In this document: piece by piece, positions 43,594 to 62,807 of the stretch
How the letters are laid out: each line of letters starts with the position of its first letter
Position numbering within the stretch: the stretch's first letter is position 1
The notes under the pieces: generated by a model
What the model was told of the DNA's origin: nothing
Database searches by the model: none
What the model saw: only the letters and a program-made list of their open reading frames with translations
Source: Anaerolineae bacterium
Lineage (GTDB): Bacteria; Chloroflexota; Anaerolineae; Aggregatilineales; J027
NCBI GenBank assembly: GCA_019913005.1
Contig: JAIOHL010000067.1
Coordinates: 1 to 64,000, forward strand
Reading direction: 5' to 3'
DNA: 64,000 nucleotides
Program-made: the position numbers and the translations under genes

Positions 43594-44399
43594 TACAACG
43601 GGTCGGTTGGCTCACCGACATTCATCTCAATTTTTTGCCATTGCCACTCGTGAACGAATTTGTCGAAAAACTCAGCCGTCATAAGGTAGATGCTTGGTTA
43701 ATTAGCGGCGACATTGGCGAGTCCGATAATCTCAGTATTTACCTCAAGATCATGGCGGCCAAATTGTCCCAGTCGATCTACTTTGTTTTGGGTAACCATG
43801 ATTTTTACCGGGGTTCAATCTATGGGGTTCGAAACGAGATAAAAGAACTATGTCGCCAAAATCCCAATTTGCATTATCTGAATAACCTTGAATATGTTGA
43901 ACTGACTTCGACTGTTGGGCTTATCGGGCATGACGGTTGGGCCGATTTACAATATGGCAATTTTGCCACTTCGGATGTCTGGATGAACGATTATGTCCTC
44001 ATTCGAGAGTTGGCGAGTCAGAAGAAAGTCGGTCTGCTACCGAGAGTGGCATCACTAGCGGATGAGGCAGCCCAGCATTTTCGACGGGTTTTACCGAGTA
44101 CACTCGAACGCTTTGCACATGTCGTGGTCGTCACCCATGTGCCTCCGTTTCAAGAGGCCTGTTGGCATGAGGGTGGCATCTCCGATGACAATTGGCTGCC
44201 GCATTTTACTTGCAAAGCAGTGGGTGACGTACTGCGCGAGATGATGTTGGCCTATCCCCATCGGCAGATGACGGTGCTGTGTGGGCATACACATGGCAAA
44301 GGGGAGGCACAAATTCTCCCCAATTTGAAGGTCTTAACGGGTGGGGCTGAATATGGCAACCCCACCGTGCAAAAAATCTTCGACTTTACTCCTCGGTAA
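43590..44399 (+). CDS. Calcineurin-like metallophosphoesterase
   Basis: A 269-residue enzyme with the full set of di-metal motifs: LTDIHLNF (D-x-H), SGDIGES, GNHDFY, VTHVPPF and GHTHG. The start overlaps the stop of the giant membrane protein (ATGA), so they are co-translated. It may cleave a phosphodiester or pyrophosphate linkage in glycan or lipid carrier metabolism; this is inferred from coupling. It runs 14 bases into the converging kinase gene. Confidence 0.85.
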   Translation: MIQRVGWLTDIHLNFLPLPLVNEFVEKLSRHKVDAWLISGDIGESDNLSIYLKIMAAKLSQSIYFVLGNHDFYRGSIYGVRNEIKELCRQNPNLHYLNNLEYVELTSTVGLIGHDGWADLQYGNFATSDVWMNDYVLIRELASQKKVGLLPRVASLADEAAQHFRRVLPSTLERFAHVVVVTHVPPFQEACWHEGGISDDNWLPHFTCKAVGDVLREMMLAYPHRQMTVLCGHTHGKGEAQILPNLKVLTGGAEYGNPTVQKIFDFTPR

Positions 44400-47300
44400 C
44401 GGCAAATTCACATGTGCCTGCGCTGATACTGCACGTTGCCAGTGTTTCTTCGCCACGCCGGACATAAAAAACGCTGTTACCATTTGCGGCTGTCCAGAAA
44501 TGGGCGCTTGCCGCACTCTGCCGAATCCATCCCAGTGAATTACGGCATGGAGAAGGCATTACCGCCTCATCACGGGTCACTAATTGGAGACAGGCATCCG
44601 GCAACATCCGTCGTAAATCATCGAGTGAGACATTGGCCGGTAGCCACTGCGCCGTTGAAAATGTTCCAAAAGAATCACCCTCGAATACCAAATCACTGAC
44701 ATTTTGTTGGAAGGGCGAAATATTAAACAGCAAAATGGAATCTGCGGTGTATACCAAACGAATTTGCGGCTGAGTGGGCAGGGTCGGCGATGGTGTTGGC
44801 GTCAGCGTTTGTGCAAGTTCGGCAGGCGTACAGAAAGGTTCAACAATATAGATTTCGCGTTCACTGCACGACAAATCCCGCACCAACCGATTTTCGCGCA
44901 CCCACATCTTGAGTTCTTCAAGCGTATCAATGCGCCATTGGATGATACTGCCATCATCCGAAGCCGAAAATGCCGCCCGTCCGTCGTGGCTAAAGGCGAC
45001 ATGATTTACGCCACCGCGATGACCTTCAAAGCGACGGATTTCTTCCCCCGATTCCAAATCCCACAAAATCACGGTGGTATCGGTTGAACCGGACAGCGCA
45101 GTATTTCCATCGAGGTTGAAAGCGACACTGTTCACCGAGGCGATATGGCGGCGGAATCGGCGAACTTCCGTACCCATTGCCACATCCCACAAGATCAGGC
45201 TTTCATCGGATGACCCCGACAATATCTGCCGTCTGTTCGGGCTAAAGGCGACACTGTTCACCGCGCCCAGATGTCCTGTAAAGCGCTGAATTTCTTCACC
45301 TTGCAACGACCACAAAATGATTGTCCCATCCGCCCCACCGGACAAAATCTGCTGTTCATCAGCACTAAGAGCGAGGCTGAGAACCGCGCTTTCCTGATCG
45401 GTGACTTGCTGGATTTGTGTGCCTGTTTCGACATCCCACACGAGAATCCGACCATCTTCGCCACTTGAAATTACATGGGAGGTGGTATTTTGCCACACGA
45501 GGCTGTAGACCGCGCCTACGTGACCCGCAAATTGGCGAACCTGCTGCCCTGTTGCCACATCCCACAAGATAATTTCCCCGTTATCCGAACCCGATACCAG
45601 CCATTGATTATCAGCATTAAACGTGGCAGCCAAGACCCGGCCCGTATGTCCCTCGAACCGTCGAATTTCCGCACCTGTGGTCAAATCCCATAAAATCAGT
45701 CTGTGATCATCGGCTGCCGAGAGCATCCGCTGGTTATCCGCCGAGATGCTTATATCCCTCACCGCGCCACCATGCCCTAGGTCGGCAAATCGTTGTAGCG
45801 GGGTCTCGTTCTCCCACTCCCACACCATCCACACACGATTGAGACCACCCGCTAGAATATTAAATCCTGTTGGGGTCGCCGCCATATCCATGCCAAAAAT
45901 CGCGCCTGCGCTGGGGTCGTTGTAGCGATGGAGAATCTCGCCTGTTTCCCGATCCCATAAAACCAATGTGCCATTTTCAGCCGCCGATAGGAATTGCGTG
46001 CCATCGGGACTGAATTGAGCGCGGGTAATCGGAGAATCTTGACCCGTGAAGCTGCGAACACGGGTGGCAGTCTGAATATCCCACAGCACCAATATCCCAT
46101 CGGTTGAGCCGGAGAGGATACTGCCACCACGTGGGCTAAATTCTGCACTGGTTACTGGGCCGCCGTGCCCCTCAAATCGAATGACTTCCTCGCCTGTCGA
46201 AACATCCCACAAAATCAGACTGCTATCCTCAAATCCGCCGAGTGCCTGCTGACCATCAAGGCTGAATGCGACAGCATAGACTCGGCCTTCGTAGCCCTCA
46301 AAGCGCCGAATTTCTTCGCCCGTCAGCAAATTCCACAGAATCAATAATCCATCCTGTGATCCAGTCAGCGCTGTCTCCCCATTGGGGCTAATCGCCACGC
46401 TGGTCACCGGGCTGGTATGACCTTCCAAGCGCAGCACGACCTGACCCGACAGTACATTCCACCAAATCGCCGTCGTATCGTTCGAGCCAGTCAAGGCAAA
46501 CTGCCCGTCAAAATTAAATTCGATGCTTGTCACCGGGGCTGTATGCCCGACGAGACGATTGATAACCTGCCCTGTCTCAACCGCCCACAAAATGACTGAG
46601 CCATCCAGCGAACCTGTTAGAAGGGTACGACCATCGGGGCTAGCCGCTAAATCCCCGTTAGGAGCGCCCCGTCCACTGAATTGTTCTGTCACCGCGCCGG
46701 GGTGTATATCCCATTGCAACAGGGCCATATCATCCGCGCCAGAAAATACGGTCAGGCCATCGGGGCTAACCGCCACCGTATTGACGTTCGCCACATGTCC
46801 TCTAAGCGTATACAGCAGGTCACCAGATTCGACCTCCCAGATTTTGAGTGTGTCATCCGCCGAAGCCGAAACAAATCGCAGGCCATCGGGGGTAAAAGCG
46901 ATAGCTCGCACCCAGTTGGTATGTCCCTCGAAACGGTGGATTTCTTGGCCCGTTGCCATATCCCACAAAATGAGTCGGGAATCATCCGCCCCGCTCAAAA
47001 TGGAGCGACCATCTGGGCTAAAGGCGACAGCCCGTACCCAATCGGTATGCCCTTCAAAACGGCGGATTTCACGACCCGCGACCATATCCCACAACACGAC
47101 AATCCCCTGCCGACTGTCCGTGCCATTTTCTACGGAACCCGACAGCGCTGTTAATCCATCCGGGCTAAAGGCGACACTAGCAACTGGGCCGAGATTGCCA
47201 GAGAGTTTTTGAAGCTGGGTGCCGGTTTCAATATCCCATAAAATCAGAGTGGTATCGCCTGAGCCAGACAGGGCGTGTTTTCCATCGGGACTAAAAGCGA

Positions 47301-50300
47301 CTGAGAAAACCGTATTGGTATGGCCTCGGAATTGGCGGATTTGTTCACCTGTCTCAACGTCCCACAAAATCAGAGTGTTGTCTTCTGAACCCGACAAAAT
47401 CGTGCGACCATCTGGGCTAAACGCGACAGCCCGCACCCAATTCGTATGCCCCGTAAAACGCCGCACAATTTCCCCGCTGGCAATATCCCACAAAATCAGA
47501 GTGTTGTCGTCACCGCCAGACAAAAGATAACGTCCATCCGGGCTAACCGCCGCCGCCAATACTCGTCCAGTATGTCCGACAAACTGTTGACGGACACCGG
47601 GTGCATAGCCGACCTGTGCCAGTACACTTTGGGCCAACGCCGAGGGCTGTTCAGATTGATTGGCTTGCAAGGCTAGGGCGATGGAAAGTTGATTATCGCC
47701 GTTTTGAAGGGCGACCTGCTGGGCATTTGCCGCTTGTAAAACACTTTGGGCCAATTGGCGTTGAATCTCTGCCACATCCTCCGCCGCCAACCGCCCTGCT
47801 GATTCTGTCTGGACAATGGCGGCTTGTGTCGAAACATTATTAGCATTGATCTCAGCTTCGCCCTGTGCAACCGTTGCAGTAGAGGCGTTGTTTCGAGCAT
47901 TGGCGGCCTCGGTTGCGGCATTATCGGCCTGTACCAATGCCTCGCCCTGTGCGATAGTTGCTGCTATTGCATTTTCTTGAGCAATCGCCGCCTGAGTCGC
48001 TGCGTTGTTTGCCTCAACAACGGCCTGACCCTGTGCAAAAGTCGCTGTCGCTGCATTGTCCCTAGCAATCTCAGCTTGCTCCAATGCCACACCCTGTGCA
48101 TTAGTCGCCGTTGCTGCACTATTTTGGGCATCCCTCGCCGAGGTCGCGGCAATAAAGGCTTGGTTAATGGCATCCCCGCGTGCTGTCTCCGCAACTTGGG
48201 CCTGAACTTCAGCCGCTCCTTGCGCATAGGTAGCGGTAACGGCAGCTAATTCAGCAGTCGAGGCACTATTGACTGCGATAGTAGCAGCTTGATTGGCAGT
48301 AGCGGCTTGTTGGTCAGAGATGCCCTGCAAATATTGAGCAGTTCGGGCACTGTCTACTGCATCTGCACGCGCACTTTCAGCCCGACGGCTCTGGCTAAAG
48401 GCAAAGATGGTTAGGCCAATCCCCATGACTGCGACCAGCACCGCCGCGATGAGGGCCAAACCGCGATTGCGATTGCGCCGACGAAGCTCCGCTTCCCGCG
48501 CTTTACGTTCCTGTTCTGCCGCCAATTCCAATTCGCGTTTTTGGGCACTGGCATGGATAAAATCTACTTCGCGCTGATTCAGGGCAATATCGCCCCCCGC
48601 CAGCAGTGCCTCATACTGCTGTAGACGCACCCCAGAAACCAGATAATTGGCGTCTTGCTGATGATCCCACCATTCCTGTGTTTCACTCGTCAAGCGCCGC
48701 TGCAAACGCAAATCTTCACGGCTATCATTGAGCCATTCTCGCAGACGTACCCATTGGCGAATTAAGGCTTCATGGGCCACTTCAACCGTAGGTTCGCGCG
48801 TCTGGGGATCATTGTCAAACGTCAGCAGGCGCGATTTGCCAAAGATGTCAATAACTGCTTCCATGACCTCTTGCTGCTGCCCTGCCACCGAAATCAATTC
48901 GGCCCAGTGAGCACGACGGCGGGTATCTTCGTTCCCTTCGCCAACTGCCACCAAGCGCAGGAACATCTGACGGGTAGCGGATTGCTTTTCGGGGTCTAAC
49001 TGTATAAATATTTCTTCGGCCCGTCGCGCCAACGCCCCCAACGCGCCACCGATTTCATGATAGGCTTTCATCGTCAGGGTCATGCCTTCACGCCGTTCAA
49101 AAACCTCGGTCAAGGCATATTGCAGCAAGGGAAGTGCCCCCGGCTCATTGCTGACATCACTTACAATCGCCGCCACGAGTTGTGGCTCGACAATTAATCC
49201 AACCCGTTTAGCTGGCCCAACAATAGTCCGTTCCAATTCATCAGCCGAGAGGGGTAATACCACTTCAGTACGTTCACGAATCAGCGCCCCAAACTCAGGA
49301 TAAAGCAGGGGGCGATCATAAAAATCGGCCCGCAGGGTAATAATAATTCTGACGCGGCTGGCGGGATCACGTGCAGCGGCTAATAGGCTGGCAAGAAAAT
49401 GAGTGCGTTCGGCCTCATTTTCGACCAGCGTAAACACTTCCTCAAACTGGTCAATCACCAGCACCAACTCACTATTGCCCCCCGGCAGAACCGATTTCAC
49501 CATTTCAGTCAGGCCATTGGGGTCTTCGCGCAGCCGTTGGAGCGTTGCTTCATCAGCGTTGATTGCAAATGAGAGGAGTTCAGTTTCAATCTGGGTGACG
49601 GGATGTGGGCCGGGCACCATTTCAGCATAAAAACTTGAGCCATAGCCAGTAATTGCACCATCCCGCAGTTTCGGAATCAAACCAGCCTTTACAACACTTG
49701 ATTTACCACTACCGCTTGGCCCTATGACCGCCAAAAAACGCGAATCAGGGTGATTATCCCGCAGGCGATTAAGCAGTTGGTCAACAAGATTGTCGCGTCC
49801 AAAAAAATCAGCAGCATCCGCAACTTGAAAAGCCCGCAACCCCTTATAAGGATTAACAGGCTCGGCCAACATTAGCAAATTGGTGTCAATGGTAATTGGC
49901 CCGGTTGTGGCCGAGTCGCGGGTGATGATGATAAGCTCATCCCCAGTATCTTCCACTTGAGCAGGTTTCGCTGATGAGGAAGCACCCAACGCACGCCTGA
50001 AATCGGCAGCAAAGGTCAACGTATCAGGATAACGATCTTGCGGGTCTTTGGCGGTTGCTTTTTGAATGACCCGATTCAGCGAAGTAGGTAACTCATTTCG
50101 TAGGTCACGCAGGGGAGGCAGAGGGTCATTCAAATGGCGCAAAATCAATTCGGACGATTGGGCATCCGCAAAGGGCTGTTGACCTGTTAATACCTCATAC
50201 ATCACAATACCGAGGCCATAGACATCGGTTTGCGGCGTAATGGGCTGACTCCGAATCTGCTCCGGCGACATATAGGCAGGCGAGCCGATCACTGTACCGG

Positions 50301-50832
50301 GAGTATCCAGATCATCCGCCGCACCAACGACCTTGCCATCGCCCAAGTTTTTCGCAATCCCAAAATCCGACAAATAGGCATTGCGTTCTTCATCGAGCAA
50401 AATATTGGCGGGCTTGAGGTCGCGGTGAATGACCCCATTGCGATGCGCGACAGCCAATGCCGCCCCAATTTGGTCAAGTAAGCGGCCTGCTTCTTCAGGC
50501 GTCCAAAAACCACGTTTAAGCGCGTCCTGCATACTGCCCCCGCGCAACCACCGCATAACCAAAAACGCACCTGTAGGGTCGCGCCAATAGTCATAGAGGG
50601 GAACGATATGGAGATGTTCTAATCGGGCAACCAATTGGGCTTCGGCCTCAAATCGCCGAATAAAGTCGGGGTGATTGGCATATTGGGGCAGGATAATTTT
50701 GATCGCAACCTCGCGTTTGACAAGCGTCTGATAGGCGCGATAAACAGCCCCAAAGCCCCCCTGCCCAATGCGTTCTTGTAGCTCATAACCTTTAATCGTG
50801 TGCCCGCTAAGGTTATCCATATTTCCATCCAA
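44386..50832 (-). CDS. Ser/Thr protein kinase-STAND ATPase-WD40 giant signalling protein
   Basis: A 2148-residue protein. Kinase domain 15-285: GQGGFGAV (23-30), K45, HRDLKPAN (D138), DFG (156-158). STAND-type ATPase 325-700: Walker A GPSGSGKS (371-378), Walker B LVLVIDQFEE. One membrane helix at about 790-812. A helical low-complexity stalk (820-1010) with 28-residue repeats based on TATxAQG. Then 21 WD repeats (about 1084-1975), and a C-terminal Cys-containing domain after a TPTPSPTLP linker. The kinase and ATPase would be inside and the propellers outside the membrane. ATG at 50832 or 50820 could be used. Probably senses ligands or assemblies at the surface. Confidence 0.88.
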   Translation of the reverse strand: MDGNMDNLSGHTIKGYELQERIGQGGFGAVYRAYQTLVKREVAIKIILPQYANHPDFIRRFEAEAQLVARLEHLHIVPLYDYWRDPTGAFLVMRWLRGGSMQDALKRGFWTPEEAGRLLDQIGAALAVAHRNGVIHRDLKPANILLDEERNAYLSDFGIAKNLGDGKVVGAADDLDTPGTVIGSPAYMSPEQIRSQPITPQTDVYGLGIVMYEVLTGQQPFADAQSSELILRHLNDPLPPLRDLRNELPTSLNRVIQKATAKDPQDRYPDTLTFAADFRRALGASSSAKPAQVEDTGDELIIITRDSATTGPITIDTNLLMLAEPVNPYKGLRAFQVADAADFFGRDNLVDQLLNRLRDNHPDSRFLAVIGPSGSGKSSVVKAGLIPKLRDGAITGYGSSFYAEMVPGPHPVTQIETELLSFAINADEATLQRLREDPNGLTEMVKSVLPGGNSELVLVIDQFEEVFTLVENEAERTHFLASLLAAARDPASRVRIIITLRADFYDRPLLYPEFGALIRERTEVVLPLSADELERTIVGPAKRVGLIVEPQLVAAIVSDVSNEPGALPLLQYALTEVFERREGMTLTMKAYHEIGGALGALARRAEEIFIQLDPEKQSATRQMFLRLVAVGEGNEDTRRRAHWAELISVAGQQQEVMEAVIDIFGKSRLLTFDNDPQTREPTVEVAHEALIRQWVRLREWLNDSREDLRLQRRLTSETQEWWDHQQDANYLVSGVRLQQYEALLAGGDIALNQREVDFIHASAQKRELELAAEQERKAREAELRRRNRNRGLALIAAVLVAVMGIGLTIFAFSQSRRAESARADAVDSARTAQYLQGISDQQAATANQAATIAVNSASTAELAAVTATYAQGAAEVQAQVAETARGDAINQAFIAATSARDAQNSAATATNAQGVALEQAEIARDNAATATFAQGQAVVEANNAATQAAIAQENAIAATIAQGEALVQADNAATEAANARNNASTATVAQGEAEINANNVSTQAAIVQTESAGRLAAEDVAEIQRQLAQSVLQAANAQQVALQNGDNQLSIALALQANQSEQPSALAQSVLAQVGYAPGVRQQFVGHTGRVLAAAVSPDGRYLLSGGDDNTLILWDIASGEIVRRFTGHTNWVRAVAFSPDGRTILSGSEDNTLILWDVETGEQIRQFRGHTNTVFSVAFSPDGKHALSGSGDTTLILWDIETGTQLQKLSGNLGPVASVAFSPDGLTALSGSVENGTDSRQGIVVLWDMVAGREIRRFEGHTDWVRAVAFSPDGRSILSGADDSRLILWDMATGQEIHRFEGHTNWVRAIAFTPDGLRFVSASADDTLKIWEVESGDLLYTLRGHVANVNTVAVSPDGLTVFSGADDMALLQWDIHPGAVTEQFSGRGAPNGDLAASPDGRTLLTGSLDGSVILWAVETGQVINRLVGHTAPVTSIEFNFDGQFALTGSNDTTAIWWNVLSGQVVLRLEGHTSPVTSVAISPNGETALTGSQDGLLILWNLLTGEEIRRFEGYEGRVYAVAFSLDGQQALGGFEDSSLILWDVSTGEEVIRFEGHGGPVTSAEFSPRGGSILSGSTDGILVLWDIQTATRVRSFTGQDSPITRAQFSPDGTQFLSAAENGTLVLWDRETGEILHRYNDPSAGAIFGMDMAATPTGFNILAGGLNRVWMVWEWENETPLQRFADLGHGGAVRDISISADNQRMLSAADDHRLILWDLTTGAEIRRFEGHTGRVLAATFNADNQWLVSGSDNGEIILWDVATGQQVRQFAGHVGAVYSLVWQNTTSHVISSGEDGRILVWDVETGTQIQQVTDQESAVLSLALSADEQQILSGGADGTIILWSLQGEEIQRFTGHLGAVNSVAFSPNRRQILSGSSDESLILWDVAMGTEVRRFRRHIASVNSVAFNLDGNTALSGSTDTTVILWDLESGEEIRRFEGHRGGVNHVAFSHDGRAAFSASDDGSIIQWRIDTLEELKMWVRENRLVRDLSCSEREIYIVEPFCTPAELAQTLTPTPSPTLPTQPQIRLVYTADSILLFNISPFQQNVSDLVFEGDSFGTFSTAQWLPANVSLDDLRRMLPDACLQLVTRDEAVMPSPCRNSLGWIRQSAASAHFWTAANGNSVFYVRRGEETLATCSISAGTCEFAVTEE
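44920..47583 (-). repeat. Array of 21 WD40 repeats encoded within the kinase gene
   Basis: About 126-base units encode consecutive blades, most with FEGH at the start, SPDG in the middle and LILWD at the end. I count 21, which divides into three seven-bladed propellers; blades 7-8 and 14 are the most degenerate, near the expected propeller borders. The DNA units are diverged, so this is not a recent tandem expansion. Confidence 0.8.
47800..48220 (-). repeat. Coding repeats of the coiled-coil-like stalk in the kinase gene
   Basis: Encodes a chain of Ala/Asn/Gln/Thr-rich repeats; at least three successive units are 28 residues long (four heptads), each with TxAQG. Coordinates are approximate. 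Confidence 0.6.
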
Positions 50833-51736: not shown

Positions 51737-53086
51737 TTATCCTTCGTAGTAGGTGTCTACTTCATCAAGGGCCGCATCCAAAATTTGAAGCCCTTCCTGA
51801 AGCTGCTCTTCGGTAATAATCAGCGGCGGAGTGCAGAACACATAATCCCAGCGAATCATCGTGCTAAGGCCAGCCTTACGCAGTGCCGCCCCTAATTTTT
51901 TGGTCGGTTCACTCTGCGGCAGATTAAATCCACTCATGGGGGCGCGGGTTTCACGGTTCTTGACTAGTTCCAACACATGGTGCATCCCTACGCCGCGCAC
52001 TTCGCCAATTGAGGGGTGTTTTTCAGCAAGGTCATTCAAGCCGCGCCGCAGCACTTTGCCCATCTCACGCGAACGTTCAATGAGATTCTCTTGATGATAA
52101 ACTTCCAACGTCGCCACACCGGCCGCACAAGCCAACGTATGAGCGCTGTAGGTTAGGCCACCCCAGAAGATATGGTCGTCAAAATACTTGGCAACTTCTT
52201 CGGAAACAGTCACACCACCCAATGGCACATAACCACAGGTAACGCCTTTGGCAAAGGTAATCATGTCGGGATTGACCCCATAATGATTGATGCCAAACCA
52301 TTCACCCGTGCGCCCAAAACCACTCATCACTTCATCGGCAATCAGCAGGATGCCATATTTATCACAGATTTCGCGGATACGCTTCCAAAAAACTGGCCCG
52401 CCTTGAATGATACCGCTTGAACCGCTGTAGCCTTCTAACATAATCGCGGCGACGTATTGCGGCCCTTCCAAAATGATCGTGTCCTCGATCAAATCTGCCA
52501 ACAGCGCATCCCCTTCATCGGGAGTGCGGTCACGATAAATGGGGCTGCGATAGGAATAAGGATCAGGCACATGCACGATCCAAGGAACGCCCGGTTCATT
52601 CGCCAAACGGCGTGGATCACCCCCCGCCGAGGCCGAAGCAAACGTCCCGCCGTGATAAGCACGATACCGCGCCACAATCTTTTGGCGTCCGGTATACTGG
52701 CGGGCCAGCTTCATGGCATTTTCGACACCTTCGGCCCCGCTGCATGTAAATAGGGTTTTCTTGAGATTCCCCGGCATCACTTCGGCCAGCATTTGGCCCA
52801 AACGACCACGCGGCTCGGTGGCAAGCGTCGGTTGCACATAACATAGCTTTTCGACCTGTTCCTGAATGGCACGGATCACATGTTTATTGCTGTGACCGAT
52901 GTTGACATTGACCAACTGCGATGACCAATCGAGATAGCGTTTGCCATCGGCGTCCCACACATAGACTCCTTCGGCACGGACGGCACTCACTGGATTGGCC
53001 CATGTGTTTTGGGCTGACCAACTGGTGAGGGTATATTCACGGTTAAGTTCGACCAGTTCCGCATGACTGGCGATATGAGAAGCCAT
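51737..53086 (-). CDS. Class III (PLP-dependent) omega-aminotransferase
   Basis: A 449-residue fold-type I aminotransferase. The PLP lysine is probably K280 in ITFAKGVT, with D251 in IADEVMSGFGRTG and the phosphate site SGAEGVENA (116-124). Members transaminate beta-alanine, taurine, GABA and similar amines. In this operon, with dihydropyrimidinase and a malonate-semialdehyde-type dehydrogenase, beta-alanine:pyruvate aminotransferase is the best guess, but sequence alone does not fix the substrate. It lies 79 bases after the dihydropyrimidinase gene. Confidence 0.85.
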   Translation of the reverse strand: MASHIASHAELVELNREYTLTSWSAQNTWANPVSAVRAEGVYVWDADGKRYLDWSSQLVNVNIGHSNKHVIRAIQEQVEKLCYVQPTLATEPRGRLGQMLAEVMPGNLKKTLFTCSGAEGVENAMKLARQYTGRQKIVARYRAYHGGTFASASAGGDPRRLANEPGVPWIVHVPDPYSYRSPIYRDRTPDEGDALLADLIEDTIILEGPQYVAAIMLEGYSGSSGIIQGGPVFWKRIREICDKYGILLIADEVMSGFGRTGEWFGINHYGVNPDMITFAKGVTCGYVPLGGVTVSEEVAKYFDDHIFWGGLTYSAHTLACAAGVATLEVYHQENLIERSREMGKVLRRGLNDLAEKHPSIGEVRGVGMHHVLELVKNRETRAPMSGFNLPQSEPTKKLGAALRKAGLSTMIRWDYVFCTPPLIITEEQLQEGLQILDAALDEVDTYYEG

Positions 53087-53165: not shown

Positions 53166-54638
53166 TTATAACACAGGCGCATGTGGGCTACGCGGGATAA
53201 ATTGACCTTTGCCTTTTTCACCCACCCATTTCTCGCCATCCACAATCTTCTTACCGCGCAGATAGACCTGCACCGGAACACCGCGTACCCGCATCCCCTC
53301 ATACACGTTGTAATCCACGCGCATATGGTGGGTCTTGGCGCTGATGGTATGTTCCTTGTTCGGGTCCCACACCACAATATCGGCATCTGCACCAACAGCA
53401 ATCGTACCCTTGCGTGGATACATGCCAAAAATCCGGGCGGGATTGGTGCAGTTGAGTTCAACAAAACGGCTGGGGCTGAACCGACCACCATTTACCCCGC
53501 GATGCCACATGACCATCATGCGGTCTTCCAAACCGGGCATCCCATTCGGAATCTTGGCGAAGTTGCCCTTGCCCAATTCTTTGCCGGGACGACGATAGGA
53601 CGGGTCTTGGGATTCGAAGCCAACCCAGTTGCCGCCATGCTTCTGATGCCATTCCTGCCAAGGGCCTTTACCGCCTTCATACCAAAAGTCGCAGTGGTCG
53701 GTGCTGACGATTTGTAGGGTGCTGTCACGTAGTGCTTTCCACAAGACTTCTTGGTCGTGTTTAGTACGGATCGGTGGCGAGCAGACAAATTTCGCGCCTT
53801 CAAAGCCGGGGGCTGCCAGATGTTCTTCAACGGTTAGGAATAGATATTGAGTACAGGTTTCGCCCATGACCGGATAACCCAAAGCCCGACCCCGCTGCAA
53901 GGCTTGGATGGAGGGTTCGCAGGTCATATGCACCACGTATAGCGAACACCCCGTTAACCCTGCCATCATCACGGCACGATTGGTCGCTTCACCTTCAATT
54001 TCCGGTGGACGTGAACTGGCGTGATACTTAGGATCAGTCTTGCCAGTGGCGACCAATTGCGGGGTCAACTGTGCTTCGACATCGCCGTTTTCAGCATGTA
54101 CCATCACAATCATGCCGTGTTTGGCTGCGACCTGCATTGCTTTAAAAAGGGTGGTGTCGTCCACCATAAACACATTTTTATAGGCCATAAACAGCTTAAG
54201 GCTGGTCACGCCTTCATGAATCAACGATGGAATTTCTTCCAACACATCTTGGCGCAAATCAGTAATGGCAAGATGGAACCCATAGTCTACGCAGGCAATT
54301 TCGGCTTTCTTGCGCCATATCTTAAGTCCATCCGCCAAGCTGCCGCCTTTGGGTTGAATCACAAAGTCAATATGACCCGTCGTGCCGCCAAAGGCTGCCG
54401 CGATGTGTCCACTTTCGAAATCGTCATTGCTGTCTGTGCCACCAAATGGCAAATCCAGATGGGTATGGACATCAATCCCACCCGGCATTAAATATTTACC
54501 CGCGCAATCCACCACTGTATGACCAGCAGCGGGAATGTCGCGCCCGATCAGGCTGACAACTTCGCCTTCCACCAACACATCGGCTTTTACCATGTCGCTG
54601 GCGGTGATGACCGTGCCATTCTTAAATAAAGTCCCCAT
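53166..54638 (-). CDS. Dihydropyrimidinase/hydantoinase
   Basis: A 490-residue amidohydrolase opening dihydrouracil or hydantoin rings. The binuclear metal site is visible: DVHTHLD (H58, H60), K148 in TSLKLFMAYKN as the carboxylated lysine, VHAENGD, VVHMTCE and STDHCDF. The length is typical. No dihydropyrimidine dehydrogenase or beta-ureidopropionase is in the window, so the pathway would need genes elsewhere. It lies between the LLM oxidoreductase (67 bases) and the aminotransferase in the leftward operon. Confidence 0.9.
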   Translation of the reverse strand: MGTLFKNGTVITASDMVKADVLVEGEVVSLIGRDIPAAGHTVVDCAGKYLMPGGIDVHTHLDLPFGGTDSNDDFESGHIAAAFGGTTGHIDFVIQPKGGSLADGLKIWRKKAEIACVDYGFHLAITDLRQDVLEEIPSLIHEGVTSLKLFMAYKNVFMVDDTTLFKAMQVAAKHGMIVMVHAENGDVEAQLTPQLVATGKTDPKYHASSRPPEIEGEATNRAVMMAGLTGCSLYVVHMTCEPSIQALQRGRALGYPVMGETCTQYLFLTVEEHLAAPGFEGAKFVCSPPIRTKHDQEVLWKALRDSTLQIVSTDHCDFWYEGGKGPWQEWHQKHGGNWVGFESQDPSYRRPGKELGKGNFAKIPNGMPGLEDRMMVMWHRGVNGGRFSPSRFVELNCTNPARIFGMYPRKGTIAVGADADIVVWDPNKEHTISAKTHHMRVDYNVYEGMRVRGVPVQVYLRGKKIVDGEKWVGEKGKGQFIPRSPHAPVL

Positions 54639-54705: not shown

Positions 54706-55713
54706 TTAGCGAACGGCTGATTTCTGGAAGGCGGGAAGGACATGTTTACCATACTGCTCGACAATGTGTTCTTCTTCACCGCACATCAAATAGATATTGA
54801 ACTGGGTCACGCCTGTGGATTCCAGTTCACGAATTTTCTCAATATGTTTTTCGATTGGGCCAAGCACCCCAAAACTGTCAATCACATCGTTGGTAATAAA
54901 ATCGAGGTGATCCGCGTCCTTATCGGCATGATGGCGATAATCATAGCCCTTGCGTCCGGCAATATAATCCGTTAGTGACTGAGGAATACCGCCCCCGGTA
55001 TGATATTTCTCCACCAAATCCGCGACATGATTCCCAACCATTGCCGGGAACCAGCGGGTTTGGGCGCGGCACTTCGCCATATCGTCAGAAACAAAGACCG
55101 GCGCAGCAGCACAGACCCGGAGTTTGGAAGCGTCGCGTCCCGCCTCGGTTGCGGCATCGCGGAACTGGGTAATAAACCAATTACAGAGGAAGGGGTCAGC
55201 CAATTGGATAATCAAACCGTCACCGTGCTGTCCAGCCGTCTTAAGTGCCAATGGCCCATACGCTGCGATCCAGATCGGCATATCATAATGTGACCACGTG
55301 AGGGTCGTAGGATACCCTTCCACAGGTGCTTCCTCCCCACGTGTTAATTTTCGCACCGTCTCCACAAATTCACCCATCTCAGCATAGGTCACGGGTTTGC
55401 GCCCCAACATGCGCTGTGAACTATCCCCACGCCCCACGCCCATGTCAATGCGTCCCCCGCTGAGAATCGCCAGCGAAGCGTGCATACTCGCCGTCACTGA
55501 CCAGTCACGAATGGCGGGGTTGGTTACAAATGGCCCAAAACGAACGCGCCTAGTGTGCTGGCTGGCGGCGGCCATATACGCATAACAGTCTTGCCAGAGA
55601 ACATGTGAATCAAAAAACCAAACATAATCAAATCCGGCGGCTTCGGCCTGCTTAATCAGATTGAGCGTGCGCTCTGGGCCGATGTCACCTTTAAATGTAA
55701 TTCCAAATTCCAT
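54706..55713 (-). CDS. LLM-class (luciferase-like) oxidoreductase, F420/FMN type
   Basis: A 335-residue TIM barrel of the luciferase superfamily: EFGITFKGD start, VWFFDSHVLW, GGRIDMGVGRGDSS and a substrate-cap region. It is not closely similar to the LLM protein at 12803. Adjacent dihydropyrimidinase and semialdehyde dehydrogenase genes suggest a redox or ring-oxidation step on a cyclic amide, but this is only context. Cofactor choice is not readable. Confidence 0.83.
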   Translation of the reverse strand: MEFGITFKGDIGPERTLNLIKQAEAAGFDYVWFFDSHVLWQDCYAYMAAASQHTRRVRFGPFVTNPAIRDWSVTASMHASLAILSGGRIDMGVGRGDSSQRMLGRKPVTYAEMGEFVETVRKLTRGEEAPVEGYPTTLTWSHYDMPIWIAAYGPLALKTAGQHGDGLIIQLADPFLCNWFITQFRDAATEAGRDASKLRVCAAAPVFVSDDMAKCRAQTRWFPAMVGNHVADLVEKYHTGGGIPQSLTDYIAGRKGYDYRHHADKDADHLDFITNDVIDSFGVLGPIEKHIEKIRELESTGVTQFNIYLMCGEEEHIVEQYGKHVLPAFQKSAVR

Positions 55714-55819: not shown

Positions 55820-57271
55820 TTACAGCCAGCGTTCAATCACAACTTTGTGGTCGGTGTAGAAATGAATTGAATCCGGCCCTTGACCGTGTGTATCCCCCAT
55901 AAACGAATCTTTTTGGCCGCCGAATGGGAAGGAAGCTGTTGGGGCCGCCACGCCGATATTGACGCCGATGTTGCCTGCATTCACACGATATTTGAAATCA
56001 CGAGCATAACCGCCATTGGTCGTAAAGATGCTGGCAGCATTCCCGTAACGGCTGGCATTAATGGTTTTCACAGCAGTGTCAAAGTCTGGCACGTGCATAA
56101 TGCTCATGACAGGCCCAAAAATCTCTTCACGGGCAAGCGTCATGTTAGATTCAACCCCGTCAAAGATGGTGGGGCCAATGAAATTGCCATCCTCAAAACC
56201 TTCGACCTTGATACCACGTCCATCCAAAATCAGTTTCGCGCCTTCTTGCACACCTTTTTCGATCATGCCCTTAATACGTTCACGTGATTGAGCCGAAATG
56301 ACCGTGCCCATTTGTGAAGATTCGTTGAGGCCATAACCGACACGCATCCGTGAGGCACGATCCATCAAAGTCTTTTTGAGTGGTTCATAAACATCCCCCA
56401 CCGCGACAATCACCGAACCCGCCAAACAGCGTTGACCCGCACAGCCATAAACCGATCCCATAATGTTGGCGACGGCCTTTTCCAAATCGGCATCGGGCAT
56501 GACGGCGATATAGTTCTTCGCGCCGCCTTGTACTTGCACCCGCTTACCATATTTAGCCGAGGTTTCATAAATAATCTTGCCAACGTGGGTCGAGCCGACA
56601 AAGGAAATACCACGCACATCGGGGTGAGCCATCAACGCATGGGCGCTATCCGCACCGCCATGCACCATGTTGACCACGCCTTCTGGCAGACCCACTTCAT
56701 CCAAAACCTCAAACAGCAGTTCGGAACTGAGCGGGGTTTGGGGAGAAGGTTTCAATACAAAAGTGTTGCCGCACGCAATCGCCACTGGCAAAAACCACAG
56801 CGGTACCATCATGGGAAAGTTGAAGGGGGTAATTGCTGCAAAAACACCCAACGGTTGACGCTCGGCGGTTTCATCAATGCCCGATGAAATGTCTTCCACT
56901 TTGAAGCCCGTCATCAGGGCGGGTACAGAAAACGCAAATTCCACACTTTCGATGCCGCGCCGTACCTCACCGCGTGCCTCATCAATCGTTTTGCCGTTTT
57001 CTTTGACGACCATTTCCGAAAGGTCATTAAAGCGTTCTTCCAGCAGATTCTTAAAGGCGTACATATAACGGGTACGGCTGAGAATGGGCGTTTGTCGCCA
57101 TTCCAGATAGGCTTCGGCAGCAGCCCGTACCACATCATCCACGTCGGAAGCCGCTGAATCCGGAGTTTCTGCCATCAGTTCACATGTTGCGGGATTCACC
57201 ACTGGAGTATATTTGTCAGTGGAGGCCTCTACCCATTCGCCATTGAAATAATTTTTTAGTTTCCTTGCCAT
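55820..57271 (-). CDS. mmsA: CoA-acylating methylmalonate/malonate-semialdehyde dehydrogenase
   Basis: A 483-residue aldehyde dehydrogenase of the MmsA branch. It converts malonate semialdehyde to acetyl-CoA, or methylmalonate semialdehyde to propionyl-CoA, with NAD and CoA. Catalytic C282 lies in GCAGQRCLAG, and FAAITPFNFPMMVP, QGGAKNY and PFGGQKDSF are branch-typical. It lacks the usual ALDH general-base Glu, as expected for MmsA. First gene of the leftward operon; it would finish beta-alanine breakdown after the aminotransferase. The divergent ABC operon starts 215 bases away. Confidence 0.9.
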   Translation of the reverse strand: MARKLKNYFNGEWVEASTDKYTPVVNPATCELMAETPDSAASDVDDVVRAAAEAYLEWRQTPILSRTRYMYAFKNLLEERFNDLSEMVVKENGKTIDEARGEVRRGIESVEFAFSVPALMTGFKVEDISSGIDETAERQPLGVFAAITPFNFPMMVPLWFLPVAIACGNTFVLKPSPQTPLSSELLFEVLDEVGLPEGVVNMVHGGADSAHALMAHPDVRGISFVGSTHVGKIIYETSAKYGKRVQVQGGAKNYIAVMPDADLEKAVANIMGSVYGCAGQRCLAGSVIVAVGDVYEPLKKTLMDRASRMRVGYGLNESSQMGTVISAQSRERIKGMIEKGVQEGAKLILDGRGIKVEGFEDGNFIGPTIFDGVESNMTLAREEIFGPVMSIMHVPDFDTAVKTINASRYGNAASIFTTNGGYARDFKYRVNAGNIGVNIGVAAPTASFPFGGQKDSFMGDTHGQGPDSIHFYTDHKVVIERWL

Positions 57272-57367
57272 TTGCCATGCTCCTGCAATTCACTACTGAG
57301 AGGTATTTTTAGCTGCACAAGTTGCGCCGAAAGTCTTAATGATACCCCTATGTGGCGCATTTGAACA

Positions 57368-57432
57368 AACATCATCTTTCGATTGTTTGCATTGATGTTG
57401 TAGAATTTGCCGCAATGATTTATATTGATTGC
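57368..57432. promoter_or_regulatory. Two dyads in the mmsA/ABC transporter divergent region
   Basis: AACATCA (57368-57374) with TGATGTT (57393-57399) and an imperfect 21-base dyad GCAAT-ATTGC (57412-57432) lie between the divergent operons. They could be operator sites for a shared regulator. No clear -35/-10 pair could be assigned in this 215-base gap, and no riboswitch was recognised. Confidence 0.35.
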
Positions 57433-57486
57433 AGTCTACTATTTAAAATATCCTTAAACTTCTGTTTGGTAAAGTGTTGTTGAAGT

Positions 57487-58479
57487 ATGTCTACCGTACC
57501 CGATAGTCAACTCAGTACACCTGCACCATCCAAATTCCGGCTTGCCCTCCAAGAATTTCTCGATGGGTCGGGGGGAACGGTGCTGTATTTTCTGGTGATC
57601 GTCCTCTGCCTGATCGGGGCATGGGAAGGGGCAAAATGGCTGGGCCAAGAAACCGACTATCGGCTTGAATTTGGCCCGGTAAAAATCAGCCTCAATATGA
57701 CCCGCGACCTCAATATGCCTCACCTCAAAGATATCGCGGAAGCCCTTTCTAAACCTTCACAAAGGCAGGGGCCACCCCTTATTGAGATTTTAGTTGAAAA
57801 AGCCAGCTATACCCTCCGACTAGCTGTTATCGGCTTCACGATTGGCACCATCATTGGCCTCGCATTGGCAATCTTGTTTGCCCATTCACGTTTATTGGAG
57901 CGCGGCCTTATGCCGTATGTGGTCGCATCCCAAACCGTGCCTATCTTAGCGTTGGCCCCAATGGTGATTATCTGGTCGGAAAACTTGTTTGGTTCGCGCG
58001 AAATCGGGATGCCCATGATTACCGCCTATCTCGCCTTTTTCCCGGTAACGATCTATACCCTTCGTGGTCTAAGTGATGTTCCACCAACGGCACTCGAACT
58101 CATGAAATCCTATGCCGCGACCCGGCGCGAAATTTTATGGAAATTACGCTTTCCCAATGCCGTCCCATATATTTTTACCGCATTAAAAATTACGGCCCCC
58201 GCCAGTGTGGTCGGAACGATCATTGCCGAACTGCCAACGGGTATTCAGGACGGACTAGGGGGAGCAATCATCAACTTTGCGCAATATTATGTCAGTGGGC
58301 CGTCTCGTTTGTGGGCCACCAATTTTGTGACCGCGATGGCTGGTATCTTATTTTTTGTCACCGTAGCAGTTACCGAATGGTTGGTCGTTCGCTGGAAACG
58401 TCCCAGCAACCGCATGGATCGCTGGGTAGACACATTTTTGAGAAATCTTCGTCGCGTAGTGCCGCTATTGAGAGATTAA
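57487..58479 (+). CDS. ABC transporter permease (NitT/TauT/THI5 type)
   Basis: A 330-residue membrane protein with about seven helices. The ABC-permease EAA-like loop appears as ELMKSYAATRREILWKLRFPNAVPYIF (residues about 202-228), which contacts the ATPase. The N-terminus includes one extra helix and a hydrophilic loop before the core. First gene of the rightward operon, with the ATPase 36-41 bases later. It belongs with importers of pyrimidine-like, sulfonate or riboflavin-type compounds; substrate depends on the binding protein at 61246. Confidence 0.88.
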   Translation: MSTVPDSQLSTPAPSKFRLALQEFLDGSGGTVLYFLVIVLCLIGAWEGAKWLGQETDYRLEFGPVKISLNMTRDLNMPHLKDIAEALSKPSQRQGPPLIEILVEKASYTLRLAVIGFTIGTIIGLALAILFAHSRLLERGLMPYVVASQTVPILALAPMVIIWSENLFGSREIGMPMITAYLAFFPVTIYTLRGLSDVPPTALELMKSYAATRREILWKLRFPNAVPYIFTALKITAPASVVGTIIAELPTGIQDGLGGAIINFAQYYVSGPSRLWATNFVTAMAGILFFVTVAVTEWLVVRWKRPSNRMDRWVDTFLRNLRRVVPLLRD

Positions 58480-58520
58480 GTGGTTGGGTCTTTGAAATAA
58501 AATAGTTCTGGAAGGTGTTT

Positions 58521-59315
58521 GTGGCAGCAGTGCAAGATACGAAAACCATTATTTCCATCAAAAATTTAAATAAAGAATACGTGAGCAGCGATGGCAAAGT
58601 CGTCCGTGCTCTACAAAATATCAATCTCGACATTCATGAAGGCGAATTTATCTCCCTCATTGGGCCGTCGGGTTGTGGTAAAAGCACGCTACTGCGTCTC
58701 ATCGCCGATCTTATTCCACCAACTAATGGGCAATTGACGATTAACGGGCATTCCGCACATGAGGCCCGCGAAAATCGTGAATATGGCTTCATATTTCAAA
58801 GTGCCACGTTATACGACTGGCGCACCGTCGTAAAAAATGTCCAACTTCCCCTTGAGGTCATGCGCTATTCCCGTAAGGAACGGGATAAACGCGCTCATGA
58901 GATGCTCAAATTGGTCGAGTTGACGGATTTTGCTGATCACTTTCCATGGCAGCTTTCCGGTGGAATGCAGCAACGTGTCAGTATTGCACGGGCACTGGCT
59001 TTTGAACCCAATTTACTGCTAATGGATGAACCATTTGGAGCACTGGATGAAATGACGCGGGAGCGCCTCAATAATGAACTCCTCGAAATTTGGGGCAAGA
59101 TTCCCTCCATGACCGTTATTTTTGTGACCCACAATATCTCGGAGGCGGTGTATCTATCTTCACGAGTGGTGGTGATGTCGCCGCGCCCCGGACGTATCAG
59201 CCAAGTTGTGAATATTGATCTCCCCCGTCCACGTGGCCCTGAAACACTGGACAGCGACCAATATTTCCATCTGATCAGCCAAGTGCGCCATTTGCTCCGC
59301 GAGGTCCATGACTAG
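58521..59315 (+). CDS. ABC transporter ATP-binding protein
   Basis: A 264-residue ATPase of the NitT/TauT (SsuB/TauB-like) type. Walker A GPSGCGKST (48-56), Q-loop FIFQSA, signature LSGGMQQR (about 144-151), Walker B LLLMDEPFGALDE and switch VTHNI are intact. The GTG at 58521 is preferred because GGAAGG ends five bases before it; the GTG at 58515 overlaps that site. It energises import together with the two permeases, which flank it. Confidence 0.92.
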   Translation: MAAVQDTKTIISIKNLNKEYVSSDGKVVRALQNINLDIHEGEFISLIGPSGCGKSTLLRLIADLIPPTNGQLTINGHSAHEARENREYGFIFQSATLYDWRTVVKNVQLPLEVMRYSRKERDKRAHEMLKLVELTDFADHFPWQLSGGMQQRVSIARALAFEPNLLLMDEPFGALDEMTRERLNNELLEIWGKIPSMTVIFVTHNISEAVYLSSRVVVMSPRPGRISQVVNIDLPRPRGPETLDSDQYFHLISQVRHLLREVHD

Positions 59316-59324
59316 GGATTTATC

Positions 59325-61178
59325 ATGAGCGAACAAGCACTGGATATCGCAACGCTAACTACCACACTGGAAATGGTACAGGCCGAAGTCGAAGCGTCGG
59401 AGATTCCGGCACCCCGGCCTGATTTACGTCGGGAAGCTGCTGGCCTATTAACCCTCCTTTTTTTGATTATCACCTATCACATCCAACACCCCTTCATGTT
59501 GTTTCGCGTCCAGTTTGGTGAGGGCTTCCGGGATGTGCGTGAAGAAGGCCTCCAAGAAGCAATGCTAATTGCACTTCTCACGTCCGGCCTCCTGCTGATA
59601 GGGTCGCCACGCAAATTATGGGAGCAGGGCCACGAAGTATTTGGACGCCTCCGCCTTGCCATCGTCATCATTGGCATGATTCTGTACCTGCTGCATATCT
59701 TTTTGGTGATCTATCGAGACACCAATGTTTTTGTCAAACTTTACGATCTTGATCCGGTCGTATTTGCCGATGAATTGCAGATGGGTAAAAAAGAAGCGGG
59801 CGAACTTGCCGACCCAATGAAGACCCTACACGGCATGGGATTACTGGGAGGTATTGGGTTGGCCTCGGCGATTTATTTATGGTCACCGTGGGAAAGCATC
59901 CGGCGTTACACAAAGTCGAATGCTGAAAATAAAGCAATGCCGCTTTTAGCAGTCGTGATTAAAGATGCAGTGGCAATCGCGGTGATAATCTTATGGGTCA
60001 TCAGCTATCAACTCTTTAATCCTCTGTGGTTCCAAGAATCCGGTCTTGCCGAGCAGTTCCGCGATCAGGAAAGTCTCATCGCATTGCTATTATTATTTGC
60101 GGTGGGGCTGTTGTTCTTTGCCCAACGGGATATTGGCTATGCCAGCGCGACAGGCCGCTTACGTATTGCCATTGGGGTTGGGTTGGCCTTTTACGTTGCA
60201 GCGGTTCTGGGTGCTACATGGGGCGACTCCAACATCATTGCCAACTATTATCATGTTGATCCGGCTGTTTATGGGAATCAAGTATTCACGCCAGAACGGA
60301 TCGAACCCCTCAAAGCCGCTGACTGGGGAGCGGTGTTGGCAGGGGTAGCACTGGCAAGTGTTATTTATTTCTGGGCACCATGGGAACGTCTACATCTATA
60401 TGCTCAAATACTGCGCCAAAACATCGCAGCGATTCTCACCGCTTTGCTAGTGCTGTTCGCATGGGAATATGGGGTGAAATTGTTTGAAATTGAGCAGTTT
60501 TTGTTACCTAAGCCAACGGTTATTTGGGAGACTTTCAAAGAAATCTATCCCAATTTGATTGCAGGTGGGTGGTTCACCTTCCAAAATGCCCTGCGCGGCT
60601 TTGCGATTGGCTGCGGGGTTGGCATTTTGACCGGAATCATCTCAGCCCGATTTTTACGATTTAGTAAAGCGATTTTGCCACTGGCAATTGCCGCCAATGC
60701 TGTGCCGATTATCGCGTTTGCGCCGATTGCTAATGCGTGGTTTGGCTTGACCAGTTCCAATTCCAAAGTGGCAATTGTCGCTGTCTTGTGTTATTTTCCG
60801 GCGATGATCAGCACAGTACGCGGCCTAACCAGTGTTGAACCCATTCAAATTGAACTCATGCGCTCCTATGCCGCCAGTCAGCTAGAAATTTTTTGGCATG
60901 TTCGCTTGCCAAATGCGCTGCCCTTTATTTTCAGCGCCCTAAAACTGGCAACCACTTTGTCAATGATTGGGGCTATTGTTTCAGAATATTTTGGGGGGAC
61001 ACCCAACACCTCACTCGGTTTTAAAATTAAAAATGATGCTGCCTTACTCAAAATGACCGATTCGTGGTCGGCGATCATCATGACATCATTGTTAGGCATC
61101 GGATTTTACGTCTTTGTTTCCGTAATGGAACGCACCGCGATGCCGTGGTATCGGTCTTTCCGCAGTGATTCTCGCTAA
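59325..61178 (+). CDS. ABC transporter permease with duplicated N-terminal membrane domain
   Basis: A 617-residue protein. Residues 365-617 are a normal NitT/TauT-type permease with EAA-like ELMRSYAASQLEIFWHVRLPNALPFIF. The first 360 residues are unusual: two copies of a membrane unit of about 150 residues (37-195 and 212-359). The copies share an EGFRD/EQFRD start, GRLRLAI/GRLRIAI, YDLDPVVF/YHVDPAVY and LASAIYLWSPWE/LASVIYFWAPWE. Each unit has about three helices and an outside loop. I do not recognise this domain. It lies ten bases after the ATPase gene. The extension may bind ligand or the binding protein. Confidence 0.87.
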   Translation: MSEQALDIATLTTTLEMVQAEVEASEIPAPRPDLRREAAGLLTLLFLIITYHIQHPFMLFRVQFGEGFRDVREEGLQEAMLIALLTSGLLLIGSPRKLWEQGHEVFGRLRLAIVIIGMILYLLHIFLVIYRDTNVFVKLYDLDPVVFADELQMGKKEAGELADPMKTLHGMGLLGGIGLASAIYLWSPWESIRRYTKSNAENKAMPLLAVVIKDAVAIAVIILWVISYQLFNPLWFQESGLAEQFRDQESLIALLLLFAVGLLFFAQRDIGYASATGRLRIAIGVGLAFYVAAVLGATWGDSNIIANYYHVDPAVYGNQVFTPERIEPLKAADWGAVLAGVALASVIYFWAPWERLHLYAQILRQNIAAILTALLVLFAWEYGVKLFEIEQFLLPKPTVIWETFKEIYPNLIAGGWFTFQNALRGFAIGCGVGILTGIISARFLRFSKAILPLAIAANAVPIIAFAPIANAWFGLTSSNSKVAIVAVLCYFPAMISTVRGLTSVEPIQIELMRSYAASQLEIFWHVRLPNALPFIFSALKLATTLSMIGAIVSEYFGGTPNTSLGFKIKNDAALLKMTDSWSAIIMTSLLGIGFYVFVSVMERTAMPWYRSFRSDSR

Positions 61179-61245
61179 AGGGGGATACACCGCGTTGGAC
61201 AATGCTTCAAATAAAATTTAGTAGGAGATCTCAAAGGAGCTTGTT

Positions 61246-62391
61246 ATGAAGCACACACGTAAGGGTTTGGTTTTGCTGGTAATGTTGTGTTTGGTCGTAG
61301 TGGGTGCTTTCCGTCCAAGCGCGGAACACAAGACCGCCCAAGCACAAGATTTGACTCCGGTTCGGCTGCAACTGAAGTGGGTGACTCAGGCGCAGTTCGC
61401 GGGATACTATGCCGCCTTGAATCAGGGCTACTATGAAGAAGCGGGTCTGGATGTGGAAATCATCCCCGGCGGCCCCGACATAAGCCCTCAACAGGTGTTG
61501 GCAGCGGGTGGTGCGGAATTTGCCATTGACTGGGCAGGCAGCGCGTTGGCCTCCCGTGAAGCAATCGTCAACGGTGGGGGCAGCGGCCCTGTTAATGTAG
61601 CCCAAATTTTCCAGCGCAGTGGTATGCGTGAAATCGCCTTCAAAGACAGTGGCATTGAGAGCATTGAAGACCTTGAAGGCAAGAACGTCGGTGTGTGGTT
61701 CGCAGGCAATGAACTGCCCTTGTTCGCCGCGCTGGTCGCCAATGACCTCGATCCCGAAGACCCCAATGATGTGAACGTTGTCGCGCAGGCCTTCGATATG
61801 GTTGCTTTCATCAATGGTGAATTGGATGCCGCTGCCGCCATGACCTACAACGAATTGGCGCAGGTGTTGGAATTTGTCGGTGAAGACAACGCCTTCCCAG
61901 TCTACACGCTGGATGATCTGAACATCATTGACCTGAACGAAGTCGGCACGGCGATGTTGGAAGACGGCATTTACGCTAATGAAGAATGGCTGGCCGATGA
62001 AGCTAACCAAGCGACTACCGTCCAATTCCTTGTTGCCAGCTTCCGGGGCTGGATTTACTGCCGCGACAACCCCAGCGACTGCGTAGATTACGTATTGGCA
62101 GAAGGCTCGGCGCTGGGTGTCGGTCACCAGACATGGCAAATGAGCGAAATCAACAAGCTGATTTGGCCCTCTGAACTAGGTGTTGGTCAACTTGATGCCG
62201 AATTGTGGACACGCACGGCAGACATCGCCCTGACCTATGCCGTCATTGAAGAAGCAGCCGATGAAGCAGCGGCCCGCAGCGATCTCGCCGCCGCCGCCCT
62301 CGCCAGTTTGCAAGAATCCTTCCCTGATCTCGATGTAAATGGCGCAGATTGGGTTGCGCCGGAAGTCGAAATCACCCCCAACGGTGAATAA
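61246..62391 (+). CDS. NMT1/THI5-like ABC substrate-binding protein
   Basis: A 381-residue exported protein with a cleavable signal peptide (about 1-34, ending AQAQD) and no lipobox. The mature start VRLQLKWVTQAQFAGYYAA with a QGYYEEAGLDVEI segment is characteristic of the NMT1/THI5-like/SsuA family that binds pyrimidine precursors, riboflavin or related heterocycles. AAGGAG is seven bases before the ATG. Last gene of the importer operon. With the divergent pyrimidine-type catabolic genes, a pyrimidine or hydantoin ligand is a reasonable guess. Without a lipid anchor it might associate with the enlarged permease. Confidence 0.87.
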   Translation: MKHTRKGLVLLVMLCLVVVGAFRPSAEHKTAQAQDLTPVRLQLKWVTQAQFAGYYAALNQGYYEEAGLDVEIIPGGPDISPQQVLAAGGAEFAIDWAGSALASREAIVNGGGSGPVNVAQIFQRSGMREIAFKDSGIESIEDLEGKNVGVWFAGNELPLFAALVANDLDPEDPNDVNVVAQAFDMVAFINGELDAAAAMTYNELAQVLEFVGEDNAFPVYTLDDLNIIDLNEVGTAMLEDGIYANEEWLADEANQATTVQFLVASFRGWIYCRDNPSDCVDYVLAEGSALGVGHQTWQMSEINKLIWPSELGVGQLDAELWTRTADIALTYAVIEEAADEAAARSDLAAAALASLQESFPDLDVNGADWVAPEVEITPNGE

Positions 62392-62408
62392 GAAATAGGC
62401 TTTTTCGT

Positions 62409-62439
62409 AAAGGGGCGGGCCTAAAAACCTGCTCCTTTT
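62409..62439 (+). terminator. Terminator of the ABC transporter operon
   Basis: AAAGGGGCGGG (62409-62419) pairs with CCTGCTCCTTT (62428-62438) over 11 positions including two G-U, ending in TTTT. It overlaps the end of the converging TfoX-N gene. Confidence 0.6.
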
Positions 62440-62807
62440 GATTTCAGAGTCTTTGGGGGCTTTGCCGCCTTTTTGCGGGGTTTCTTGGGTGGCATCTCAC
62501 GGATATATTCAAGGGCAGCCCGCGCAAATTTTTCCCAATCATCAGCATGTTGAGATGGAATAGTCAGCCATCCGGTCATCGGTTTACCCGTTTCCATAGG
62601 GTCAAAGGCTTTAGCACCTTCCATAGCTATCGCCTCGGCATAATCCTCTGGTTTCAGTTTTACCAGCAAATCATCATGATACAGTGCTGCAAATGCATAC
62701 CCATTTGCCATTAAATTGGGTGAACCAAACATTTGGCGCGGGGTAACCTGTTCGGTAATCACCAGCATATCGCGTAACTGCTCATACGCCTTTTTCCCGT
62801 CCGACAT
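62421..62807 (-). CDS. TfoX/Sxy N-terminal domain protein
   Basis: A 128-residue protein with a TfoX-N domain (about 1-100: QMFGSPNLMANGYAFAAL and DDLLVKL) and a Lys/Pro-rich basic tail (about 105-128). Stand-alone TfoX-N proteins are widespread and their function is poorly known; full-length TfoX regulates competence in proteobacteria, which cannot be assumed here. The basic tail may touch nucleic acid. It converges on the ABC operon and stands 70 bases from coaBC. Confidence 0.8.
   Translation of the reverse strand: MSDGKKAYEQLRDMLVITEQVTPRQMFGSPNLMANGYAFAALYHDDLLVKLKPEDYAEAIAMEGAKAFDPMETGKPMTGWLTIPSQHADDWEKFARAALEYIREMPPKKPRKKAAKPPKTLKSKGAGF

Follow-up and report, generated by a model that had tools for sequence, protein, structure and literature searches.

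Permease B, encoded in a four-gene importer operon of the window (the whole stretch of DNA analyzed, 64,000 nucleotides), carries a new domain family on a known kind of transporter. Two tandem copies of a membrane unit of ~165 amino acids form an extension of ~365 residues ahead of an ordinary ABC permease core, and this repeat is more than chance and undescribed in the libraries searched. The unit is a real, selected, lineage-specific add-on, present in zero, one, or two copies among relatives. The reading we prefer, with a probability of about 0.48, is that the extension serves permease B of this type I ABC importer as an accessory (scaffold) module of four TM helices, present in duplicate. 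The gene is divided as follows.

59325..61178, + strand: permease B, 617 aa; two N-terminal units and an ABC permease core
59415..59933, + strand: unit 1 (residues 31-203); predicted to have four TM helices; retains the QFGxxFRD...Q motif of single-copy relatives
59934..60422, + strand: unit 2 (residues 204-366); predicted to have four TM helices; retains the PWERLxxY junction beside the core
60423..61175, + strand: type I ABC importer permease core (BPD_transp_1) with a CmpB/NrtB-like fold (Pfam, NCBIfam, structure match)

The start codon of permease B is ATG, and the open frame reaches just 3 codons upstream of it. At 617 aa, the protein is more than twice as long as its ~250-aa core, as the first-pass annotation had remarked. 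The core (residues ~367-617) is an ordinary ABC permease of the SsuC/NrtB/CmpB type. BPD_transp_1 (PF00528) matches residues 433-603 with 75 bits, above the gathering score of 26.4, while the NCBIfam matches are confined to the core and each lies under its equivalog cut-off. The PDB sequence matches cover residues 418-592 only and are the CmpB and NrtB permeases. In the predicted structure, residues 364-607 superimpose on CmpB with a Z of 23.6 and an rmsd of 2.3 over 239 aligned residues, and Foldseek gives an E of 5.5e-7 for the core against a solved type I permease. A plasmid search with permease B matched the core alone, at less than 60% identity (best rows, residues 370-617), and found no plasmid record covering 80% of the query. 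Judging from the model, the core alone makes up a complete permease of the CmpB/NrtB type.

The two units align with each other over nearly their full length, with a BLOSUM62 local score of 175. In 6,000 shuffles of three kinds, the highest score was 74; the corresponding z values are 29 for full shuffles, 21 with the hydrophobic/polar pattern kept, and 18 for shuffles of 12-residue blocks. Neither unit aligns with the permease core better than chance. The FG of the FGxxFR motif is lost in unit 2. The first-pass annotation had seen an undescribed-looking membrane domain, duplicated in tandem and joined to an ABC permease, and this description holds: the libraries searched contain no match to the domain, the repeat far exceeds shuffled membrane sequence, and single- and zero-copy orthologues exist. 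The four landmarks on which it was based (FRD, GRLR[LI]AI, D/H-x-DP-V, and LAS-IY-W-PWE) are all present and aligned across the units. The interval given for it, 59433-60401, lies inside the repeat, though the boundaries listed above are better.

The units have no match in Pfam, NCBIfam, PHROG, or the PDB sequences. Pfam gave no significant match in residues 1-360. The best hit, the membrane sensor MASE3 (PF17159), scores 10.3 bits, far under its gathering score of 31 (E 0.53). No Rfam match was found in 57000-62600.

Permeases orthologous to permease B are widespread in Chloroflexota. Of 29 orthologues inspected beyond the window's order or on its margin, none has a believable membrane extension; L030 has one weak hydrophobic stretch, in an upstream frame that looks noncoding. 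Stop-to-stop frames of up to 709 codons in relatives outside the order are not hidden extensions, as they contain essentially no hydrophobic segments before the core. A search of 400 genomes of the phylum with the unit profile gave nothing convincing besides the window's own protein. Within the order, 33 of 154 genomes have clear units (E below 1e-10), and a divergent one in G782 makes 34. Most of the unit-bearing permeases of the order have one copy, and two copies occur only in family f1, whose 7 genomes are five of the window's genus, G684, and G685. The first unit of the G684 protein (L096:3348-5360, - strand) is longer by about 45 residues, which bring one more hydrophobic stretch. A hit in G116 (L011, E 6.7e-4) is a YidC-like protein and no relative. 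Weak profile matches in G406 and G437 fall within an ORF rich in G+C and a transporter-like protein that is unrelated.

In a tree of 39 units, those of the two-copy proteins are set apart by a branch with support 100/99, and among them unit 1 and unit 2 group separately (96/87 and 89/79). This topology fits a single duplication in the f1 ancestor that gave both copies. When four genomes of the window's genus are compared, dN/dS lies at 0.05-0.09 in unit 1 and at 0.09-0.20 in unit 2, and the core has 0.03-0.07. Both units are thus selected protein, and each is under purifying selection. These values bear on the idea that the units are a lineage-specific elaboration of little function, accumulated as by a ratchet. 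The units occur in one order only, a loss or independent absence is seen once (G780, G781), and unit 2 is diverging faster than unit 1, all of which agree with such a history. However, the dN/dS of 0.05-0.20 and the retention of invariant residues across genera are not expected from it, and we consider it quite unlikely.

The AlphaFold2 model of unit 1, built with 38 aligned units, is an up-down bundle of four long helices (5-25, 47-63, 76-102, and 126-157) with short surface helices (mean pLDDT 71). In the full-length model of permease B, the core is good (blocks mostly 80-90), unit 2 is moderate, and unit 1 is poor, because most relatives have a single unit that aligns to unit 2. The mean number of Lys and Arg residues is 2.7 and 3.7 in the two inside loops and 1.7 in each outside loop, and outside loop 2 is acidic. 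This positive-inside bias places the N-tail, loop 2, and the C-tail in the cytoplasm. As modeled, each unit resembles a membrane bundle of four helices whose two ends are cytoplasmic, and an even number of helices would allow a unit to be added or duplicated without inverting the core. The extracellular loops, of about 19 and 30 residues, are short. A fold search for relatives of the unit returned generic helical bundles only: the best Foldseek E is 0.93, and the VIA Z values for unrelated four-helix bundles, up to 9.4 with this query of pLDDT 71, are within the range noted as common among helical bundles.

The positions of the conserved residues should be noted. P56, R69, Q77, and N134, on the side predicted to face outward, are invariant or near-invariant, as are W186, P188, W189, and Y195 at the inner end. 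The outer-face motif N/H-P ... QFGxxFR ... Q, together with N134, is conserved in single-copy units and in unit 1. Of the inner-end residues, P188 and W189 do not vary among the 38 units and Y195 occurs in 95% of them, and the basic PWxRLxxY segment directly precedes the core. Such a location would suit an extension that regulates ATPase coupling from the cytoplasmic side via the PW...Y junction and the basic tails. However, the motif may be a mere membrane-interface cap and Pfam finds no known regulatory domain, and we regard this regulation as very improbable.

The other genes of the operon and its divergent neighbors are as follows.

57487..58479, + strand: permease A, the partner permease, with no extension in the window genome (ORF, Pfam)
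58515..59315, + strand: ABC ATPase subunit (ORF, Pfam, NCBIfam)
61246..62391, + strand: NMT1/THI5-like solute-binding protein; cleavable signal peptide without a lipobox
55820..57271, - strand: (methyl)malonate-semialdehyde dehydrogenase, MMSDH subfamily, divergent neighbor (Pfam, NCBIfam)
54706..55713, - strand: LLM-class flavin oxidoreductase, TIGR03842 (Pfam, NCBIfam)
53166..54638, - strand: dihydropyrimidinase/hydantoinase (TIGR02033, above cut-off)
51737..53086, - strand: class III aminotransferase (PRK06062 subfamily, above cut-off)

The operon order is permease A, ATPase, permease B, and NMT1-type binding protein, and permease B has the ABC_tran and NMT1 neighbors of a type I importer. 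The neighboring genes fit reductive pyrimidine or hydantoin catabolism as generally known, and the gene context suggests that the importer probably takes up pyrimidines, hydantoins, or related heterocycles. In G684, the cluster is joined by a nitrilase-type protein (L096:9325-10164), presumably a beta-ureidopropionase. The LLM-class flavin oxidoreductase accompanies dihydropyrimidinase in many related loci and might supply the reducing step of pyrimidine breakdown. Elsewhere in the window (44386-50832, - strand), a 2148-aa ORF appears by eye to combine a Ser/Thr protein kinase with an NTPase-like region, a TM segment, a heptad-like stretch rich in A and Q, and numerous WD40-type repeats.

The divergent catabolic genes and the unanchored binding protein had led the first-pass annotation to suggest that the extension could pre-bind a heterocyclic ligand or dock the binding protein. 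In the first case, the units would bind the substrate or heterocycle in the membrane and pass it to the core or sense it, and the adjoining dihydropyrimidinase and related genes, as well as the conserved aromatic and polar residues, are consistent with this. However, unit-less orthologues adjoin the same catabolic genes (G780/L107), and no known ligand-binding membrane family matches in the Pfam, NCBIfam, and fold searches. The suggestion is unsupported, and we think it has hardly any likelihood.

The main argument for docking was the unanchored binding protein. In this explanation, the soluble binding protein would be held at the permease by the units, through docking or tethering, and its local concentration would rise. 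The binding protein indeed lacks a lipobox, and the conserved outer-face motif with N134 would offer a contact. However, a lipobox is found in none of 30 SBP_bac_1 proteins inspected in the window genome (G000, loci L118-L147), and relatives with bare permeases likewise have nonlipidated binding proteins. The unanchored state is therefore the rule here and does not distinguish the window system. The short outer loops also disagree with docking, which is left without support as a claim and which we consider unlikely, while contact of the outer-face residues with the binding protein is possible. Cleaved signal peptides seem to be the only kind that the binding proteins of the organism have.

In the scaffold reading that we prefer, each unit would enter and leave the membrane on the cytoplasmic side, pack beside the permease core and the partner permease, and stabilize the assembled TMD pair. 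The outer-face residues P56, F64, G65, R69, Q77, and N134 of unit 1 would be presented near the binding-protein docking surface. The units would resemble in action the scaffold helices around the TMD of OpuA, to which a relationship is undetectable. Because orthologues manage without units, the units probably lie outside the translocation path, and the zero-unit orthologues across Chloroflexota indicate that the transport fold does not depend on the unit. The completeness of the core, the purifying selection on the units, a sister clade extended on the other permease, and the published precedent of OpuABC argue for a scaffold to the degree stated at the outset.

In that sister clade, 45 operons of the order have a bare permease B, and permease A has an N-terminal extension of its own, with four predicted TM segments, followed by a ~140-residue extracellular insert after the first TM of the core. 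Examples are L106:7872-9605 (-), L112:4341-6092 (-), and L113:4269-6002 (+). Homology of this extension with the unit was undetectable in profile comparison (E 0.21 with 3 sequences; 0.083 over 18 columns with 45 sequences) and was rejected. The insert looked binding-protein-like by eye, which was unconfirmed: profiles of NMT1 proteins gave E 0.063 over 13 columns, and Pfam gave no match.

Both permeases were readable in 77 operons, one operon with permease A cut by a contig end being excluded. Only permease B is extended in 29, only permease A in 45, neither in 3, and both in none, so that exactly one permease is extended in 74 of the 77. This mutual exclusion is suggestive of equivalent roles for the two extensions, though not proof. 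In the permease B tree, A-extended and B-extended operons form two well-supported clades, and thus a single gain in each clade, with no repeated switching, may be enough to explain the exclusion. For the scaffold reading, this means that the exclusion could be two frozen accidents; in addition, the three operons with neither extension show that the module can be absent, and the packing on the core is putative, unit 1 being poorly predicted in the full-length model. A broader proposal, an order-confined new domain family adding intramembrane docking, binding, or regulation, with unrelated four-TM extensions doing the same job on opposite permeases, seems rather unlikely to us.

The unit merits its own domain family, since annotation pipelines see the C-terminal permease only. 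This unnamed membrane module forms a clean 0-1-2 copy series on a standard importer whose sister clade has the other subunit extended, which allows a direct test of the role of extra helices on one importer half.

Permease B shares its core fold and operon logic with CmpB and NrtB of the cyanobacterial bicarbonate and nitrate ABC importers (PDB 9u9z and 8wm7), whose chains of about 280 aa match only the residues after about 355. The SsuC, TauC, and SaoP permeases are similar to its core in NCBIfam, but these families lack the extension, and permease B scores far under the equivalog cut-offs (81/295, 75.6/347, 43.3/342, and 39.8/209 bits for the SsuC, TauC, NtrB, and SaoP equivalogs). MalF of the maltose importer has an N-terminal TM segment and a large extracellular P2 loop or domain. 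In both MalF and permease B, one permease of the pair has extra N-terminal membrane or extracellular structure, but the outer loops of the unit, at 19-30 residues, contrast with the large P2 domain. In OpuABC (Lactococcus lactis OpuA), the TMD is ringed by a scaffold domain (PMC8199443, PMC11065425). Both OpuA and permease B are thus parts of type I importers that have membrane segments in addition to the core; in OpuA, the binding domain is fused to the TMD. No sequence relationship was found between OpuA and the unit, whose predicted fold is a generic four-helix bundle, and the likeness would be that of a scaffold by analogy.
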